64,000 nucleotides of DNA from Prosopocoilus inquinatus (lineage: Eukaryota > Arthropoda > Insecta > Coleoptera > Lucanidae): positions 35,495,001-35,559,000 of the forward strand of contig CM069876.1 in the NCBI GenBank assembly GCA_036172665.1, given 5' to 3'. Of this stretch, positions 26,164 through 35,755 are shown one piece after another. The translations under genes and the position numbers were made by a program. How positions within the stretch are numbered: the stretch's first letter is position 1; each line of letters begins with the position of its first letter. The notes below the pieces were generated by a model. That model did not search any database. It saw only the letters and a program-made list of their open reading frames with translations, and had not been told where the DNA came from.

Positions 26164-26866
26164 AAACACATAAAAGCAGAATCGAGCGGGCGATTTAAAT
26201 TGTTTTTTATTTAAAAAACCAAATGTGTGTTAGTTAGTTATTTCAAATTTGTTTTCTTTCGATCGTAGTCTTTTTAATTTAAAAGTCGGATTGAAGCAGT
26301 GAACGCCACTCGATTCGAGTTATTAAAATGCAAATGATTTTCGCACTCGAACGCGAAATCTGCAATCCGCGTAAATAAATAAACGTTCTACTCAATAATG
26401 CTTTAAAAATAGGCACCCCGAATGCCGCCAGCAGTGTAAACACATTTAATGTGTGTACGTAAATCGATTTTGAGCAAATTTAACAACAAAACCGCAGACA
26501 GAATGGATTCTTTTAGAATCAATGCGTGAACTAGTTTCTGAATGGGACGGAGAGAATGTAGAATTGATTGTTTAACTGAAGAGCGCTGTTATTTAACTTC
26601 TGTCCCAAAAAGAATTATTTCTCATTTTGTCAAAGTTTTAATTAAAATAAAGGGAATGATGAGAACCTAAAAGCTGTGTATGTATATATATGGGCTGCTG
26701 GAAAAGTTAAAGAAAGAATTAAACAAGCTTTTACTAATTACTAACTTTCGTATTAGACTTAAGTCATCATGGTGTACGTTAATTGGTAATGTTCCATTAT
26801 TAATGATATAAAATTAAGTGACAGTTGTAAATAAAAGTGTATGGGCTAAGACATATGTATATACGT
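26164..26866. other. No recognisable gene; mariner-end fragment
   Basis: At 26691-26708 TGGGCTGCTGGAAAAGTT matches the left TIR of the mariner at 31479 without a second end or transposase nearby. It may be a residue of another mariner copy. The rest is AT-rich. Confidence 0.45.
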
Positions 26867-27004
26867 ATTTCGGCAGCTAAGCTGCCATCTTCAGTAGATG
26901 CCTTCTTCGCATAGTATATAAGGTAGCGATAAGTACGACACAGTTATTTCTCTTGTGATTAAGAAGAAGGCATCTACTGAAGATGGCAGCTTAGCTGCCG
27001 AAAT
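26867..27004. repeat. Hairpin with 42 bp perfect arms
   Basis: ATTTCGGCAGCTAAGCTGCC and onward to GCCTTCTTC at 26867-26908 is exactly complementary to 26963-27004. Each arm holds the sub-palindrome GGCAGCTTAGCTGCC. On the plus strand 26977-27003 reads CTGAAGA-T-GGCAGC-TTA-GCTGCC-GAAA, a hammerhead-core-like motif, and the left arm carries the same on the minus strand. Confidence 0.85.
26977..27003 (+). other. Hammerhead-core-like stem-loop motif
   Basis: CTGAAGA is followed by T, a six-pair GGCAGC/GCTGCC stem with TTA loop, then GAAA. Core letters fit CUGANGA...GAAA with one extra base before stem II. Perfect arm identity shows it is recent or maintained. Activity is unproven. Confidence 0.35.
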
Positions 27005-27118
27005 TCATATAATATTTAAAAGACTTCTTGTGGTTAGGAGGATTTAACCCTATTTTATTGTACTGCAAACCACAGTCACAGTAAATATCACGATTTACAT
27101 TAGACATAAACTTAAAAC

Positions 27119-27285
27119 TTAAGTAAATGGTTTTTAAATTATAACCGGATAGAATTATAATTGGAAATAGCACTCAACGTTTCACTATCGATTGATAGCT
27201 GCGTCACTCCTGATCGACAGTGAAATTTAATTGCTATTTCCAATTATAATTCTGTCCGGTTAGAGTTTAAAAACCATTTACTTAC
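27119..27285. repeat. Hairpin MITE with ~53 bp arms
   Basis: TTAAGTAAATGGTTTTTAAA, CCGGAtAGAATTATAATTGG and AAATAGCA on the left pair with TTGCTATTTCCAATTATAAT and onward on the right. The loop (27179-27206) holds CGTTTCACTATCGATTGATAG, a degenerate version of the motif at 61873-61900. A one-arm relic is at 25030. Confidence 0.75.
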
Positions 27286-27970
27286 GATTTTCGTCGGACA
27301 AGAGTCACTTTTAATTAAAACTTAATATATTACAAACACATTTTTGTATTTTGGTCATTTTGGATGCCAGTTTTGAATAGGTTCGTTCCAGCAGCAGTTT
27401 CTGACTATTCCAAAACCGTCAAAACTAGTAGCCCACCAAAGTTATTGTTATTAGTATTATCGATTTTAACGTTTTTTTATTTGACGGTTTCGTACCAGGA
27501 GTACTTAATAGTCGGCAACAAATCTAATTTATGGACAGTGTTCGAATGATTTTTCTTAAATATTTCGACGTGAACAGGTTCTATGGCTTCCCGACTTATT
27601 AAATAATCTGTTTTGACGTCCGTCGGGTAGGTATTTTATCGTCTGCGGAGATTTACGAAACGGCGGCGTTTAGTATTTCCTTTGTATACATTTTCGCGTG
27701 CGTTACGTGCTTTTTATGATTTGTCATGTAAATATTATCTCATTTCCAGATGATTCAAAACGCGCTAAAATAGACACCGTCGGCCGACCTTTGGCTCTGC
27801 ATTGCCGCCGCCGCTACTGCTCCTCGAATCCTCCAGAAGATAGATACCATTGTTTCTCTAATAATTTTTGAAAATATACAGGTGCCATCTGTCTTAAGAA
27901 ACCTTTTTGCGTAGGAAGATGATATGGAAATAATTTCCGTTGATACCCATCGTCTTTATTAAAATCTATC
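27286..27970. other. No recognisable gene
   Basis: AT-rich flank of the LTR element. The frame 27364-27549 has no domain. The last four bases, ATAT at 27971-27974, form the left TSD of the retrotransposon. Confidence 0.4.
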
Positions 27971-27974
27971 ATAT

Positions 27975-28323
27975 TGTTACGTTTCTAGGGTTTAAATTTA
28001 TTTATTTAAACGAATAAAACACTCGATAAAAACTTAACCGTAATTTAATAAAGCTTAAAAACTAATTTATTTGTAACAATTTATTTTCACATTAAAATCT
28101 AACTTCGACTATCGCTGTTCGAATTCGACTGACTCGTGAGTCAACTCCGGGTGACTTTATATCATTTGCTGCCGTCTGGAATTCTCTACGCTGGAAGATT
28201 CGAGTTTGTTCCATCGCCAGAAAAGTCTAGGCTGTTCGATGTAGACCCCGGTGGCGTGGCAACCAATGACGCATAACGAACCGACTTCTTGACGCCCTGA
28301 GCTAAGCCGGGTGGCGCGCCACA
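27975..28323 (-). repeat. 3' LTR
   Basis: The LTR has TG...CA ends (minus strand TGTGGCGCGCC ... CGTAACA). It differs from 30776-31124 at about four positions, among them the CGACTATC/CGACGATC, GGGTGAC/GGGCGAT and GGCAACC/GGCAGCC sites. The last ~45 codons and stop (28186) of the macro-CCCH reading frame lie inside it. Confidence 0.95.
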
Positions 28324-29097
28324 CTGCCCCCTTCTTAAAAACGTTTCGTCTCGAAATGTTCCTGGTGATAGTCTTGAAGGAGGGTGTCGGAATCTACATG
28401 CTGGCCCATTCTTGCAACTTCCCGTCTGGAAGAAGTAGCAGTCTACGGTTTTGCTGTTGCTGACTGTTGCCTGTGGGTGGTGGCTGCAGACTAGGACTTC
28501 AATTCCCGTTCTATGGAAGATGACTTCCAGCATGCTTCGAATTACTCTCCAGTCTAGTCCGTCCAATCCGCAGCCCAATTTGGGGATGGCTAACTTCATC
28601 TGATGGTTCTCTATTAGCTGTCTCCTGAGGCTATATAGGGCTCTCCACATACTTTGATAGTCAGGTTTACCGCTTGATGTCTTCTTAGTGACTAAATAAT
28701 GCACGTGGCGCCTCCGATCTGCCGTCGAATCAATGATCTGCAAGCTCTTGCCTACCATGGGATCCTGTCTTCGTAGCTCCTCGATTTGGCCAAATTTCTT
28801 CCTAAACACCTGAGCGATTCCTTTGGACATTTTCAGGTCTTCTGCTACGCAGTGGGCCAGACTGTACTCCAGTGGCACTTTAAAGAGATCTTGTTGCTTC
28901 TCCGTGGTCACTCCAAACCGTGCCTTGCTTCCTTCGGCGTGATGAGACATGAAGGTTTCGAAGTTCACTTCGGAAACTTGCGCCCTTTGTACTGTCCCTT
29001 CATCTGCTTCTCCATGGTAAGGGGCTATCCGGTTGAAGTGGATTACTTTGGGTGTGCCCGAATACCACTTTCGCGGGAGTCTCCCCTGTTGTCTCAT
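28186..29097 (-). CDS. Gypsy pol C-terminus: TARG1-like macro domain plus CCCH zinc finger
   Basis: The open frame is 303 codons from the Met at 29097; its real upstream partner is integrase, in another frame because of a deletion. Residues ~14-29 (GTPKVIHFNRIAPYHG) are the usual end of Gypsy integrase/pol, and the frame simply runs on. Residues ~71-205 form a macro domain of the OARD1/TARG1 type: HCVAEDLKMSKGIAQVFRKK and FG (82-103), HYLVTKKTSSGKPDYQ (133-148), and AIPKLGCGLDGLDW (170-183). The Lys of RKKFG and the Asp of GLD match the catalytic Lys84/Asp125 pair known in human TARG1, which removes ADP-ribose from acidic side chains. Residues 220-238 form a CCCH finger (C-X7-C-X5-C-X3-H). 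The final part is encoded by the 3' LTR. Countering host ADP-ribosylation or processing RNA-bound ADP-ribose is inference. Confidence 0.9.
   Translation of the reverse strand: MRQQGRLPRKWYSGTPKVIHFNRIAPYHGEADEGTVQRAQVSEVNFETFMSHHAEGSKARFGVTTEKQQDLFKVPLEYSLAHCVAEDLKMSKGIAQVFRKKFGQIEELRRQDPMVGKSLQIIDSTADRRRHVHYLVTKKTSSGKPDYQSMWRALYSLRRQLIENHQMKLAIPKLGCGLDGLDWRVIRSMLEVIFHRTGIEVLVCSHHPQATVSNSKTVDCYFFQTGSCKNGPACRFRHPPSRLSPGTFRDETFLRRGQCGAPPGLAQGVKKSVRYASLVATPPGSTSNSLDFSGDGTNSNLPA
28324..28337 (-). promoter_or_regulatory. Polypurine tract
   Basis: On the minus strand AAGAAGGGGGCAG sits directly before the 3' LTR start TGTGG, the place and composition expected for the plus-strand primer. Confidence 0.85.
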
Positions 29098-30529
29098 GAA
29101 CAGATGAGCGGTATGCCATTAGAAACAGGGGGATGTACGTATCCCAGTCCCTCTGATGATTGGAAACGACCTTGGACAAATGTCGGTTGATGGTTCTATT
29201 GAACCTTTCCACCATTCCGTCCGACTGTGGGTGGAGTGCAGTTGTTCTAGTTTTTCGTACGCCGAGCAGAGTACACACGTTCTTGAACAAGGCCGATTCA
29301 AAGTTCCTTCCTTGCTCTGAATGCAGTTCCATAGGTGCACCATACCGATTGATCCATTCCCTGACAAGGACTTCCGCAATAGTGACTGCCTCTTGGTTAG
29401 GTAGGGCGTAAGCTTCAACCCATTTACTAAAGTAGTCCATTACCACGACGATGTACTTGTTTCCACCATTCGTTTCTGGAAACGGGCCGGCTACATCGAT
29501 GGCAACTCTCTCAAAAGGACTTCCAACGTTGTACTGTCTCATGGGGGCCTTACCCCGCCTGTGGGGGCCGTTACTGGCTGCGCAGACTGCACACTTTCTG
29601 CACCAATCCTTCACGTCTTCCTTGCAGTTCACCCAGTAAAATCTTTCGCGCACCTTCTCCATAGTCTTCTTAACTCCCAGATGCCCTCCCGAAGTTCCAT
29701 CGTGAAGTTCCCTCAGAACTTCTGGCACCCTATTCTTGGGGATTAGTAACTGTGTCTTCTGTTCCATGCCTTCTGGATTCTCCATGCTTCGTCTCAGAAG
29801 ACCACGATCCAACACTATGGAGTCCCACTGCGCCCAGTATGATTTTACGGACGGTGCACATGGTGCTACCTCTTCCCAGGTAGGCCTCGCGTCCCTGCTT
29901 TTCCACTCTAGCACTAATTTCAAATCCGGGTCGTTCTTCTGGTCTCTTCGCAGTTCTTCGTCTTGCCATTTGTCGTCAACTATGGCTGTCCTCGCAGTCG
30001 TGGCTACTTTCTCGTCCAAACGACTACAGTGCTTACAGTCTTCGGCACAGGGTCTTCTCGACAAAGCATCGGCATTTCGATGGCTAGTTCCTGCCCGATG
30101 CTGAATTTCAAAATCGTACTCCTGAAGTCGTTCGATCCATCGTGCAACTTGCCCTTCTGGGTTCTTGAAACGGAGAACCCATTTTAGAGCGGCGTGGTCG
30201 GTCCTCAGCAGGAAGCGTCTACCATACAAGTACTTGTAGAAGTGTTCTATCGTTTTTACGACGGCTAGCAATTCCCTTCTTGTGACGCAATAGTTTCGTT
30301 CCGGCTTTGATAGGACTTTACTGAAGTAGCCGATCACCTTCTCTTGCCCCTCTTGTATCTGGGAGAGTACGCCACCAATCCCAACGTTGCTAGCATCTGT
30401 GTCCACGACGAATTTGCCTTCCAGGAGAGGATAACTCAAAATAGGAGCACTAATCAAGTACTGCTTTAGTTGTTCAAAGCCAATTTGACACTGTTGGTCC
30501 CATTCAAATGGACGACCTTCTTCAGTGAG
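29000..30529 (-). CDS. Gypsy pol fragment: RNase H and integrase
   Basis: The frame enters at about 30529 (LTEEGRPFEWDQQC, the reverse transcriptase connection) and stays open for ~510 codons. Numbered from the Met at 30457: RNase H with DTDASN (D21), E62, TDH (D87) and NADALSRR (D130); integrase zinc module H252/H259 and CRKC/CAVC (286-292); catalytic core with D321 (AIDVAGPF), HSEQGRNF at 380-385 and E417 (GMVERFN). The middle acidic residue, position 381, is Glu instead of the usual Asp; spacing to E417 is 35, as in D,D35E enzymes. After ETTGETPAKVVFG the frame shifts to a different reading and stops at 29000. The GPY/F-type C-terminal module is missing, so the join to the macro frame is a deletion scar. 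Confidence 0.93.
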   Translation of the reverse strand, partial: LTEEGRPFEWDQQCQIGFEQLKQYLISAPILSYPLLEGKFVVDTDASNVGIGGVLSQIQEGQEKVIGYFSKVLSKPERNYCVTRRELLAVVKTIEHFYKYLYGRRFLLRTDHAALKWVLRFKNPEGQVARWIERLQEYDFEIQHRAGTSHRNADALSRRPCAEDCKHCSRLDEKVATTARTAIVDDKWQDEELRRDQKNDPDLKLVLEWKSRDARPTWEEVAPCAPSVKSYWAQWDSIVLDRGLLRRSMENPEGMEQKTQLLIPKNRVPEVLRELHDGTSGGHLGVKKTMEKVRERFYWVNCKEDVKDWCRKCAVCAASNGPHRRGKAPMRQYNVGSPFERVAIDVAGPFPETNGGNKYIVVVMDYFSKWVEAYALPNQEAVTIAEVLVREWINRYGAPMELHSEQGRNFESALFKNVCTLLGVRKTRTTALHPQSDGMVERFNRTINRHLSKVVSNHQRDWDTYIPLFLMAYRSSVHETTGETPAKVVFGHTQSNPLQPDSPLPWRSR

Positions 30530-30678
30530 TCTGGATCTTCACCAGCTGTCAACAAATCGCATCGGAGACGCTGTTGAAGTGCGCCTTTCAAACCACAGGT
30601 TTCTAACTCTCGTTCTTCCAATTCGGTTTTTAATTCGGCCACTTTTAAGTCTTTCAACAACACTTTTCTCGTAGCCAT
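30466..30678 (-). pseudogene. Gypsy gag N-terminus, SAP-like, truncated
   Basis: Met at 30678 starts LLKDLKVAELKTELEERELE and continues CGLKGALQQRL, a good match to the two-helix SAP DNA/RNA-binding motif known at the gag N-terminus of some arthropod Gypsy elements. After about residue 48 the sequence enters pol DNA in the wrong frame and stops. The deletion junction is near 30530; the rest of gag, protease and reverse transcriptase are gone. Confidence 0.75.
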
Positions 30679-30775: not shown

Positions 30776-31124
30776 TGTTACGTTTCTAGGGTTTAAATTT
30801 ATTTATTTAAACGAATAAAACACTCGATAAAAACTTAACCGTAATTTAATAAAGCTTAAAAACTAATTTATTTGTAACAATTTATTTTCACATTAAAATC
30901 TAACTTCGACGATCGCTGTTCGAATTCGACTGACTCGTGAGTCAACTCCGGGCGATTTTATATCATTTGCTGCCGTCTGGAATTCTCTACGCTGGAAGAT
31001 TCGAGTTTGTTCCATCGCCAGAAAAGTCTAGGCTGTTCGATGTAGACCCCGGTGGCGTGGCAGCCAATGACGCATAACGAACCGACTTCTTGACGCCCTG
31101 AGCTAAGCCGGGTGGCGCGCCACA
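30776..31124 (-). repeat. 5' LTR
   Basis: This is the promoter-side LTR, 349 bp, ~99% identical to 27975-28323. On the minus strand an AATAAA-like signal is not obvious; AT-rich tracts TTTATTTAAATAAA fill its 3' half. The short minus frame 30958-31140 is not a gene. Confidence 0.95.
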
Positions 31125-31128
31125 ATAT

Positions 31129-31478: not shown

Positions 31479-32757
31479 CGTGGGCTGCTGGAAAAGTTTC
31501 TGGAAACGGTATGAAAAAACGCATATGAAATTTGGTAAACGGTATCATTTTTTTTCGAAGTATTCCCCTTTGACGTCAATATACTTTTGCATACGCTCGA
31601 ACCAATTTCTAAAGCACGTTTTCCACTCTAAAAATGGTACCTCAGAAACCAGTGTCCGGAATGTCTCAACCGCTGCTTCAGCCGACGAAAATCGCTCACC
31701 ACGCAGTTTATTTTTGATATTTAGGAACCAAAAGAAATCATTAAGTGATAAATCAGGTGAATATGGTCAATGAGTCATTAATTCAACATTTTTGTTGGAC
31801 AAAAATTCAACTGTTTGACGGGCTGAGTGAGAGCTGGCGTTTTCATGATGGAGAATAATTCGTCGATTTCGATTGTGTCTTCTTATTTGATCGATGGCTT
31901 CCGGCAAACAAATTGTAGTATACCAATCAGCTTTCACGGTTTTTCGATCCTCTAAAGCCACGGTTGCTACATGTCCACTTAAAGCAAAGAAACAAGCGAT
32001 CATTTGCTTCGCAGCACTGCGTGAACGGACAACTTTTGTTGGTTTTGGTTCATTTTGAAATACCCAAACGGTAAATTGTTGTTTATTTTCTGAATCGTAC
32101 GAATAGATCCACGTTTCGTCACCAGTAACGATGTTATAAAATAAATTTGAACGACCTCCATTGAATTTCTTGAGCATTTCTTCGCACCATTTGATACGAC
32201 CCTGCTTTTGCGCTTCTGTTATATTGTGTGGGATCCATCGACTGCAAAGCTTTCGTACGTTCAAATGATCGTGCAAAATCTAGTGTATTGCTTTCATGTC
32301 AATGCGTAAGGATGCTTGAATCTCACGGTATGTCACATGTCGATCTCGCTCAAGCATTTCACGTACAGCAACTACATTAGTGGCAACAACAGATGTTGAT
32401 GGACGACCTTCACGAAATTCGTCACTGAGAGAGGTACGTCGACGCTGGAATTCGGCAAACCAATTATAAACACTGCTCTTTGATGGTGCTTCATCTCCAA
32501 AAGCCAAATGAAGACGATCGAGGCATTGTTTCGGCGTTAGACCACATTTGAAATCGTAAGAAATCATGGCACGAAAATTTTCACGCGAGATTTCCATGTT
32601 TACACAAAATTACTTTTTCTCAAATGCTGTGCAAACAAAACTAGTTCACTTGGATAGGAACTGTCAATAGAATTATATAGGCGAAGAACGTCAAATTTTT
32701 CAAATATGACAGTTGATAAACGCTAACAATTCTAGGCCTACTATACAGCAGCCCACG
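31479..32757 (-). mobile_element. mariner element, 1279 bp
   Basis: Ends are CGTGGGCTGCTGGAAAAGTT on the left and the complement of CGTGGGCTGCTG on the right; only 12 bp are shared as TIR. TA target duplications lie at 31477-31478 and 32758-32759. Size and content are those of a full-length mariner whose transposase (minus strand) has two nonsense codons. Confidence 0.95.
31545..32597 (-). pseudogene. mariner transposase, cecropia-like, two stops
   Basis: The single frame from Met 32597 to the stop at 31545 covers 350 codons, the usual mariner length, with no frameshift but TAG at codon 106 and TGA at codon 277. The N-terminal HTH part has MISYDFKCGLTPKQCLDRL and GRPSTS; HVTYREIQASL, RKLCSRWIPHN and KQMIACFF follow. 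Catalytic motifs are TGDETW (first D), LHHENASSH (second position is Glu where Asp is usual) and NDFFWF (third D), with 34 residues between the last two, i.e. D,D34D geometry. Wording of the motifs is closest to the cecropia subfamily (the one that gave SETMAR). The copy cannot make active enzyme as it stands. Confidence 0.93.
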
Positions 32758-33582: not shown

Positions 33583-33966
33583 GTCTGGGTTAGGGATTGT
33601 AATACCGGTAAATCGCCAAAAATATTCATATTCATATAAATTTTACCGGTAATTTTCCATTTTTTTTACCGGTAATTCGGTAAATTACATAAAGCAATCA
33701 AAATCTAAGGTCTAAGTGGTAGGTACGCGTTTTCTACTTGCGCTTTAAGCGGTTTCTGATACAATGACATGAGTTAGCGTTATACTTGCATCGCAACTAA
33801 GCTAGATTTCATGTCGTTTGACGGTTTCAGTGAAAGTAATTTCGACATCTGAAAAGTTAGATTTTCGCTTTCCTGCTAAAGCACAAGATACAAGATTCGG
33901 CGACAAGTTCATATCTTGGAAAACATTAGAGATAAACATAACACTATACAGGAAGATTCAGGCAAC

Positions 33967-35755
33967 TCTTTCATTAAAAGTTTACGGACTTCTCCTTTGA
34001 ATTTCTGTGTCATATTTTGCACTTATAAGTTAACGATAAGGATCTATCAAAATGTAATATTTTCAATTTTTGGACACTTCTGCTTATACCGGAAGTTGCT
34101 GTCAACTTTCTTATTTTCAATGTAATATCCTATTTTTTATTGCATTTTCGAAATCTTCATAAAATTCTTAAAATATTTTGTGCATCATGTGATACAAGAA
34201 AAATTAACCGTTTTCGGGATATTTTCAATTTTTAAAAATAACTCAGACTTGTAGAACCTTGGTTATGATACTGCCACCTTTATACAACAAAAACCATGAT
34301 TCCCATTTTTGGTCTATAGTAGGCTACAGTAACATTCTTTCAGATCATGTCCAGTTTTGCACTTTATCGCTTACAGGCTGGTTGAAAAGTAACTTCTATT
34401 CGAGCTAATTTCAACTGTCGAAAAGTCATATTTTTTAAATGAAACGCCTAGTATATTTTTATACCATGTGACTGAGGATTGAATGTTCTTTCGTCTTGTA
34501 TTAGTATTCCCTATACCTATATCTTATAGTTCACTCGTTATCGATGATTTCTTTTTAACATCTATTTTTTTCCATTTTTCGGTATTGTTTTTAAATAGTG
34601 GGCTATGAGAACTAGAGAAATTATAATTTTTGAAATCATCCGTCTAGTAGAAATTAAAAACTATTTAATTGCTACGAAGAACCAAAAAATGAATATTCAA
34701 ACACAGACATATTAAATGTATTTGACGATAAAAAGTTCGAAAATTCAAGAAGTTAATAAAAAAATTGTTATATAGAGAAAATGCGTTATTGCTTGGATAC
34801 AGTAGAAAGTTATTACTAATAAATAATAGCCGAGGACAACTTAGAGCCAATATTATAACCAACAATTTGTGTATTATTTTTAATATTTCTGATTTATTTA
34901 GTGGTTTTCATAAAATTTTGTATTCTAAGTGTAAATTTCTTCTTGTAAATGTGTAAACAGTCATACCAAAAAATTCTAATACATGCGGCATATGTAAACA
35001 AAAAGTTCAGATGATAGATGTGTATTTAAATATTATTTGTCGCTTTTTAAAATGAAATTGAAATTACAGTCAGAAATTAATTTAAAAAGCCTCAGTTTGT
35101 TAAATATTCATAGCACACTATTCAGGAATAATACTGAAAAGTGAGAAAATTGATGTGTCAAAGAGAAAATCATGAATAGAAAGAGAAAGGTAAGAGGTGG
35201 ATACAGGGAATGCTAATACAGTTCGAAAGAACATTTAATTCTGATTCTTATGGTATAAAAAAATATTGGCTGTTCTATTTAAAAAACATGCCTTTTTGAC
35301 AATTGAAATCAGTTCGAATAGCAGTTACTTTTCAACCAGCCCGTAAACAATCTTGTGCAAAATTAGTTATGACCTGAAAGCTTATGAGCATAGCCTACTA
35401 CAGGCCAAAAATTGAAATTATGGCTTTTGTTACACAAAGACGGCAGCATCATAAACAAGGTACTGAAACTTTGAACTTTTTTTAAAAAATGGAAATATCT
35501 CTAAAACGGCTAATTTTTCTTGTATCACATGCTACACAAAACATTCTTAGAATTTCATGAAGATTTCAGAAATGCAATAAAAAATGGGGTATTCCATTTA
35601 AAATAAGAAAGTTGACAGCAACTTCCGGTACAAGCGGAAGTGTACGAAAATTGGAAATATTTTATTTTAATAGATCGTTATCGCTAACTTATAACCGCAA
35701 AATATGAAATAGTAATTGAAAGAGGAAGTTCATAAACTTTTAATGAATGGGTTGA
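33967..35755. repeat. Large inverted repeat inside the hAT-like element
   Basis: The arms 33967-34373 and 35346-35755 pair over ~400 bp, including GACAGCAACTTCCGGTA-type and AATTTTTCTTGTATCACATG blocks and AAACTTTTAATGAA at their outer ends. A further block resembling the right arm, AAAATAAGAAAGTTAG...TTTCCGGTAGAG, lies at about 35995-36050, showing a repeated module. Confidence 0.8.
34374..35342. mobile_element. 969 bp nested long-TIR element, TA-flanked
   Basis: The ends CAGGCTGGTTGAAAAGTAAC and (reversed) CGGGCTGGTTGAAAAGTAAC continue as ~160 bp inverted arms. TA lies at 34372-34373 and 35343-35344. It occupies the centre of the larger inverted repeat 33967-35755. Short frames in the AT-rich core have no domain. 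Confidence 0.8.

Follow-up and report, generated by a model that had tools for sequence, protein, structure and literature searches.

A predicted TARG1-class macro domain behind the integrase in a Gypsy-type retrotransposon clade of beetles

The window analysed here, a stretch of 64,000 nt from the lucanid beetle Prosopocoilus inquinatus (GenBank assembly GCA_036172665.1, contig CM069876.1, positions 35,495,001 to 35,559,000 of the forward strand), contains a decayed Gypsy-type long terminal repeat (LTR) retrotransposon with 349-bp LTRs, a 4-bp target repeat and two internal deletions. The last part of its pol frame, behind the integrase, encodes a predicted macro domain of the TARG1/OARD1 class, followed by a CCCH finger. 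This architecture recurs in many copies within the same genome and in further beetle species, and its sequence is constrained. The modelled domain has the TARG1 fold, and its sequence contains the equivalents of both catalytic residues of that enzyme.

Results

Structure of the element in the window

The element lies on the minus strand and, in its own direction, consists of the following features.

31125..31128, no strand: target-site repeat ATAT on the 5′ side of the element
30776..31124, minus strand: 5′ LTR, 349 bp, TG...CA, with 4 mismatches in 349 to the 3′ LTR
30530..30678, minus strand: what remains of the start of gag (a SAP-like N-terminus; SAP matches at 2.6e-6 in copy L046), truncated by the large internal deletion
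29003..30538, minus strand: frame of RNase H and integrase (H2C2, rve), in which the genuine integrase sequence stops at the second deletion at about 29056
28936..29058, minus strand: integrase C-terminal tail (PKVIHFNRIAPYHG) and linker, in the same frame as the macro domain
28483..28935, minus strand: predicted TARG1-class macro domain, frame residues 62-212
28684..28686, minus strand: Lys codon equivalent to TARG1 K84, invariant in a 50-row alignment
28561..28563, minus strand: Asp codon equivalent to TARG1 D125, invariant in the same alignment
28384..28440, minus strand: CCCH finger C-x7-C-x5-C-x3-H, with CPSF4 fingers as PDB matches
28324..28336, minus strand: purine-rich tract 5′ of the 3′ LTR, also coding (RRGQ), possibly the polypurine tract
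27975..28323, minus strand: 3′ LTR, 349 bp, containing the end of the pol frame
27971..27974, no strand: target-site repeat ATAT on the 3′ side of the element

The macro-bearing frame extends over 310 residues without a stop (minus strand 29118..28186) and ends within the 3′ LTR, while the plus strand of the interval 28186..29097 has many stops. Comparison with two longer copies shows two losses from the window copy: 3.0-3.1 kb near 30530, comprising most of gag, the protease and the reverse transcriptase (RT), and some 330 nt near 29056, comprising the C-terminal part of the integrase, where the frame shifts. Among the pol enzymes it retains only RNase H and part of the integrase. The original prediction, made from the sequence of the window alone, had described a run without stops from the integrase end into the macro domain. 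This is correct for the integrase tail, which shares a frame with the macro domain, but not for the integrase core (frame 29003-30538), which is out of frame with it in this copy.

The assignment to the Gypsy type follows from the direct TG...CA LTRs and the short target-site repeat of the window copy and from the order protease, RT, RNase H and integrase in copy L046. An env gene behind pol, as in errantiviruses, was not found, and there is no room for one because the pol frame extends into the 3′ LTR. Neither the window frame nor the L046 pieces gave a Pfam match to a chromodomain, the mark of chromoviruses.

Identity of the macro domain and the finger

The Pfam check that had been proposed for the frame was successful for the finger, with zf-CCCH above the cut-off (2.9e-6), but left Macro below it (0.0027). 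In a phmmer comparison the window domain matched human TARG1/OARD1 at 2.8e-29, and the finger had its best match in the CPSF4 fingers (1.2e-7). An AlphaFold2 model built on 50 sequences reached a predicted local distance difference test (pLDDT) score of about 90 or higher across most of the macro core and was poor in the finger region. The predicted macro fold superimposed on TARG1 (4j5r) with a template modelling (TM) score of 0.96 on the target and a root mean square deviation of 1.1 Å. The first eight PDB matches of the predicted fold were TARG1/C6orf130 entries, with DarG macro domains next. By sequence and model, the domain belongs to the TARG1/OARD1 class of macro domains, with a predicted fold closest to TARG1.

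In human TARG1/OARD1, an ALC1-type macro domain hydrolase, K84 makes a lysyl intermediate that D125 resolves, according to the available parts of PMC9967889 and PMC6397177. The element domain resembles this enzyme in its predicted fold, in about 37% of its residues, in the equivalents of both catalytic residues and in a published sequence pattern, but sits in a retrotransposon polyprotein, joined to the integrase and mostly also to a CCCH finger. The equivalent of D125 is the Asp of GCGLD (frame residue D186, nt 28563-28561), as originally proposed. RKKFG, proposed as the motif of the catalytic Lys, does not hold this residue; the counterpart of TARG1 K84 in the alignment is the first Lys of VTKK (frame residue K145, nt 28686-28684). 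The pattern, given as TKx(30,35)Px[IL]GxGxD in the available part of PMC6397177, fits the window copy, 34 of 35 copies from the same genome, 15 of 25 representatives of the window lineage and 105 of 112 free-standing relatives. Among the domains tested from other lineages of elements (see below), L052 fits and L051 and L055 do not.

The family in the same genome

The genome of P. inquinatus (650 Mb) yielded at least 128 matches to the window frame, the weakest listed at E 1.5e-181; this copy count is a lower bound, as 128 of 3242 candidates were scored. Twenty longer copies, chosen partly for long frames, were fetched, and in 17 of them the integrase core and the D125 codon are connected by a single frame, although in L040 a stop comes soon after. 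The three copies without such a frame are the window copy, L034 and L037. Both LTRs were found in 12 of the 20, with identical 4-bp target repeats in 11 of these 12. Copy L046 contains, in this order, SAP, protease, RT, RNase H, integrase (H2C2, rve and C-terminal domain), macro domain and CCCH finger.

The two deletions that break the window copy might suggest a one-off fusion, a host OARD1 fragment or an assembly artefact at this locus. The 128 scored copies, the 17 fetched copies with one integrase-macro frame and the relatives in named beetles (see below) stand against it, and we regard this explanation as practically negligible. Capture by a single copy and a host fragment joined by the deletion are both contradicted by the copies and the beetle relatives, and the common order of domains is the family trait that the original prediction had set as its test. 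That this Gypsy pol closes with a TARG1-like macro domain followed by a CCCH finger is supported by Pfam for the finger, by phmmer and the fold match for the macro domain, and by the copies sharing one frame. A chance frame was ruled out together with the one-off capture and the host OARD1 fragment by the genome copies, the relatives outside and the integrase tree.

Relatives in other species and the integrase clade

Among public proteins, 199 match the window domain frame. The named hosts among the best 120 listed are nearly all the longhorn beetles Aromia moschata and Molorchus minor, and shorter matches come from Pyrocoelia, Callosobruchus, Leptinotarsa, Gonioctena and Aquatica. All named animal hosts of macro-bearing relatives of the window lineage among the matches listed are beetles; one listed match comes from a contig labelled as the fungus Erysiphe pulchra, a possible insect contamination. 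None of these best 120 of 199 relatives carries the Pfam Macro label.

A quick tree without bootstrap was calculated from the RNase H-integrase part of 120 rows (119 of 235 listed proteins, those with enough coverage, plus copy L010). All 23 macro-bearing rows fell within one clade of 27 rows with a support of 99 in the Shimodaira-Hasegawa-like approximate likelihood ratio test (SH-aLRT), and the 93 rows outside carry no macro domain. The presence of the domain requires five changes on this tree. In a macro domain tree of 86 of 142 rows, the window-lineage domains (31 rows) are separated by one branch from 55 OARD1-like proteins (99/99). The support of this branch was 93/91 once three domains of other lineages were added and 100/100 in a reduced 62-row set.

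One protein counted as OARD1-like, P0137 from the longhorn beetle Rhamnusium bicolor (260 aa), is a free-standing macro protein that adjoins the window lineage in one tree (97/81) and is unplaced in another. This protein could be related to the donor gene, or it could be what is left of an element.

Other macro-bearing lineages in the same genome

Searching this genome with flea OARD1 yielded 151 matches, which mostly fall in long element frames, many of them of different length. The other lineages were read as small stretches, one example each. In lineage B1 (frames of 1914-1916 aa) the macro domain is located between protease and RT, scores above the Pfam cut-off (7.7e-9) and matches TARG1 at 1.4e-38. 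Among the 65 rows listed for the 947-residue piece, 10 align with all of it at 98% or more and have no stop; a further 7, in frames of 1947-1953 aa, align at 74%. Lineage B2 (1764 aa) also has the order protease, macro (TARG1 3.3e-37) and RT; among 112 rows, 23 align with the entire piece at 98% or more and have no stop. Of these, 17 lie in 1764-aa frames, and these near-identical copies point to recent movement. In lineage C (1784 aa) RNase H and integrase flank the macro domain, which scores just under the Pfam cut-off. In each of the six copies that have both among the matches listed, the macro follows the RT match at a distance of 499 nt; the C-type RT rows C4:19003839 and C3:5908968 have no macro row among these. 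Lineage D (1575 aa) has the macro domain (1e-8, above the cut-off) behind the integrase, followed by a charged tail without a CCCH finger. In a family with 1238-aa frames the protease adjoins the RT, leaving no room for a domain between them in the part read.

The Lys and Asp residues are kept in all four examples (B1, B2, C and D). Judged by sequence, predicted domains of the same class are present at three joints of pol in one genome: between protease and RT, between RNase H and integrase, and behind the integrase. The original prediction had overlooked these further lineages.

In the 1575-aa family (L058:1-1125, L060:3-1439) the charged tail has repeats of the type W(D/S)-x-EDEIPL(S/A)EL, and an AT-hook-like stretch, RKPGRPKK, lies at the integrase end before the macro domain. 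Two further flea OARD1 matches in this genome (G000), C4:18968482-18968835 (53%) and C5:3752910-3753233 (50%), could be host-gene exons or element fragments.

Number of captures

The three different pol joints and the distant integrases argue for several captures. The integrases of the other lineages share 37-46% identity with the window lineage over 247-298 residues; the macro-free relatives among the best 120 of 4520 integrase relatives share at least 54% over RNase H-integrase. In the 62-row macro tree the B1, B2, C, D and window-lineage domains stand apart among OARD1-like proteins, with five changes (5-95% bootstrap range 5-5). In approximately unbiased (AU) tests, p-AU was 0.109 for a single origin of the element macro domains (62-row set) and 0.33 when the window lineage was held with B1 and B2. 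In the integrase test, p was 0.144 when the window lineage was held with D and 0.076 when it was held with B1, C and D. Several captures would be the simplest reading of these sequence data, with a single origin not rejected (p 0.08-0.33). Weighing against several captures, the B1, B2, C and D integrases form one group outside the 120 rows (99, with a warning of long branches), and one old capture with later moves might be common to these four lineages. Passage of the domain between elements is also possible.

Flanking repeats

Mariner-type transposase remains lie beside the element (31767-32609, minus strand), with HTH_48 (1.5e-9) in 32283-32609, a partial Transposase_1 match below the cut-off in 31770-32279 and a stop between them. 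An inverted repeat at 33963-34550 and 35167-35754 has 588-nt arms, 80% complementary and 616 nt apart. Downstream of the element there are short inverted repeats at 26860-27011 (49-nt arms, 96% complementary) and 27114-27290 (64-nt arms, 89%).

Proposed role of the domain

With moderate confidence, we favour the explanation that a Gypsy clade captured a TARG1-class macro domain behind its integrase and that this domain is a hydrolase removing host ADP-ribose. The capture, at the end of pol and usually followed by a CCCH finger, would have taken place in a clade whose animal hosts, as far as named, are beetles. The domain would be an active ADP-ribosyl hydrolase that travels with the integrase or is cut off by the element protease, and would strip ADP-ribose placed by host PARP-type enzymes on element proteins, RNA or complementary DNA (cDNA), while the finger may keep it on nucleic acid. 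Available parts of two papers report that TARG1 frees Asp/Glu residues of proteins (PMC9967889) and thymidine of DNA (PMC8501950) from ADP-ribose. The domains of the same class at other joints in further Gypsy-like lineages suggest that ADP-ribose removal has been repeatedly useful to such elements.

The catalytic residues are conserved. Of 141 element domains, a set that includes the window copy and many near-copies, 139 have the Lys and 139 the Asp, and the copies of the same genome have the Lys in 35/35 and the Asp in 34/35. The mean ratio of nonsynonymous to synonymous substitution rates (dN/dS) was 0.26 for the macro domain (35 copies), 0.30 for RNase H-integrase (16 copies) and 0.36 for the macro domain of those 16. 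The corresponding ratio for changes common to at least two copies (pN/pS) was 0.11, compared to 0.42 for single-copy changes, and one shared and one single stop were found among the copies. The between-species comparison, in which 22 of 25 representatives at 90% non-redundancy keep both residues, is the firmer evidence of constraint. The finger is less constant, with 34 of 35 own-genome copies and 16 of 24 other representatives.

Several observations weigh against an active hydrolase acquired and kept for counter-defence. Selecting the copies by protein score favours low dN and so biases both dN/dS and pN/pS downwards. Part of the catalytic pair is lost in 3 of 25 representatives (K to R in P0251 and P0256, D to N in P0256 and P0258), and binding alone may suffice for some elements. 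Eight of the 24 other representatives have no finger, and some of these eight are truncated. In the integrase clade 4 of 27 rows have no macro match. P0246 has a finger-like remnant after a gap, which looks like a deletion, and P0296 is a short model, but P0250 and P0259 end just after the integrase, as macro-free relatives do; they may be real losses or exceptions (loss, recombination or misplacement). The original prediction had named macro-free relatives ending with the integrase as evidence against it; such relatives exist outside the clade and, inside it, as P0250 and P0259. Finally, it is not established that insect hosts use ADP-ribosylation to attack retrotransposons; loss of PARP-1 in Drosophila was reported to raise several gypsy-type elements, perhaps indirectly, and to lower a few elements (PMC7712786, available part).

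The changes in the catalytic pair would also suit a reader domain. Such a domain would bind ADP-ribose and steer integration to PARP-marked chromatin or DNA breaks, in the manner of the chromodomains that sit behind the integrase in other Gypsy elements. The position in the window lineage is the same, macro domains bind ADP-ribose, and the available part of a preprint on chikungunya virus in Aedes describes ADP-ribose binding as critical and hydrolase activity as not. The retention of both catalytic residues in most representatives is at odds with a pure reader, and the protease-RT and RNase H-integrase positions in other lineages make integrase tethering less natural. We consider a reader function unlikely.

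A hydrolase could also serve the element itself, by clearing ADP-ribose from DNA ends, phosphates and bases at the integration site for cDNA completion and integration repair rather than for counter-defence. The fusion to pol, next to the integrase in the window lineage, would suit this role, as would the similarity to DarG, the next class in the fold comparison, which acts on ADP-ribosylated DNA, and the removal of thymidine-linked and phosphate-linked ADP-ribose from DNA by TARG1 (PMC8501950, available part). However, 98 of the best 120 of 4520 integrase relatives have no macro match and only 22 have one, and the abundance of macro-free near relatives implies that the domain is dispensable for the basic cycle. 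A repair role appears rather improbable to us, and removal of host-placed ADP-ribose from element components stays the reading that we prefer.

Discussion

Among the records listed in a literature search of openly licensed papers (CC0, CC BY, CC BY-SA), none described a Gypsy element with a macro domain, and hardly any work on ADP-ribosylation and retrotransposons came up. The original prediction knew of no description either, which agrees with this result for Gypsy elements but missed a precedent among retroviruses: macro-domain open reading frames (ORFs) were reported in fish epsilon-like endogenous retroviruses (Basta et al. 2009, as cited in PMC4977317). These are likewise retroelements with a macro domain. 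They differ in that it is an additional ORF of vertebrate retroviruses; its class is not stated in the available part of PMC4977317. Accessory domains in LTR-element polyproteins are known from Gypsy elements with a chromodomain, a DNA methylase or a viral helicase (PMC6338049); a term search of the available text gave no hit for ADP-ribosylation, and every hit for 'macro' was part of 'macrophage'.

RNA-virus macro domains have been described to counter host ADP-ribosylation. RNA-virus and insect-virus proteins share the macro fold with the element domain, and the best viral structure match was VP8 of Kadipiro virus (BFVD A0A8E0KJF2, 40% identity); the macro domains of chikungunya virus and coronavirus NL63 are more distant (15-17% identity). 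Further viral structure matches came from thrips-associated and virga-like insect viruses. Viral contigs scanned with the window frame and with a protease-macro-RT piece contained no relative.

A tentative extension, which we regard as possible but doubtful, is that several uptakes of TARG1-class ADP-ribosyl hydrolases at three pol joints, by LTR retrotransposons of one insect lineage, were driven by a host defence based on ADP-ribosylation. The domains would then be counter-defences, pointing to an unrecognised ADP-ribose arm of transposon control in insects.

There is an annotation gap for domains of this kind. The window-lineage domain scores below the Pfam Macro cut-off, and a survey of proteins of the TARG1 type was restricted to lengths of 130-230 residues (PMC6397177, available part), a size range that leaves out domains inside pol by design. 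A TARG1-class domain with its predicted catalytic residues in a retrotransposon makes host ADP-ribose marking of element proteins, RNA or cDNA directly testable.
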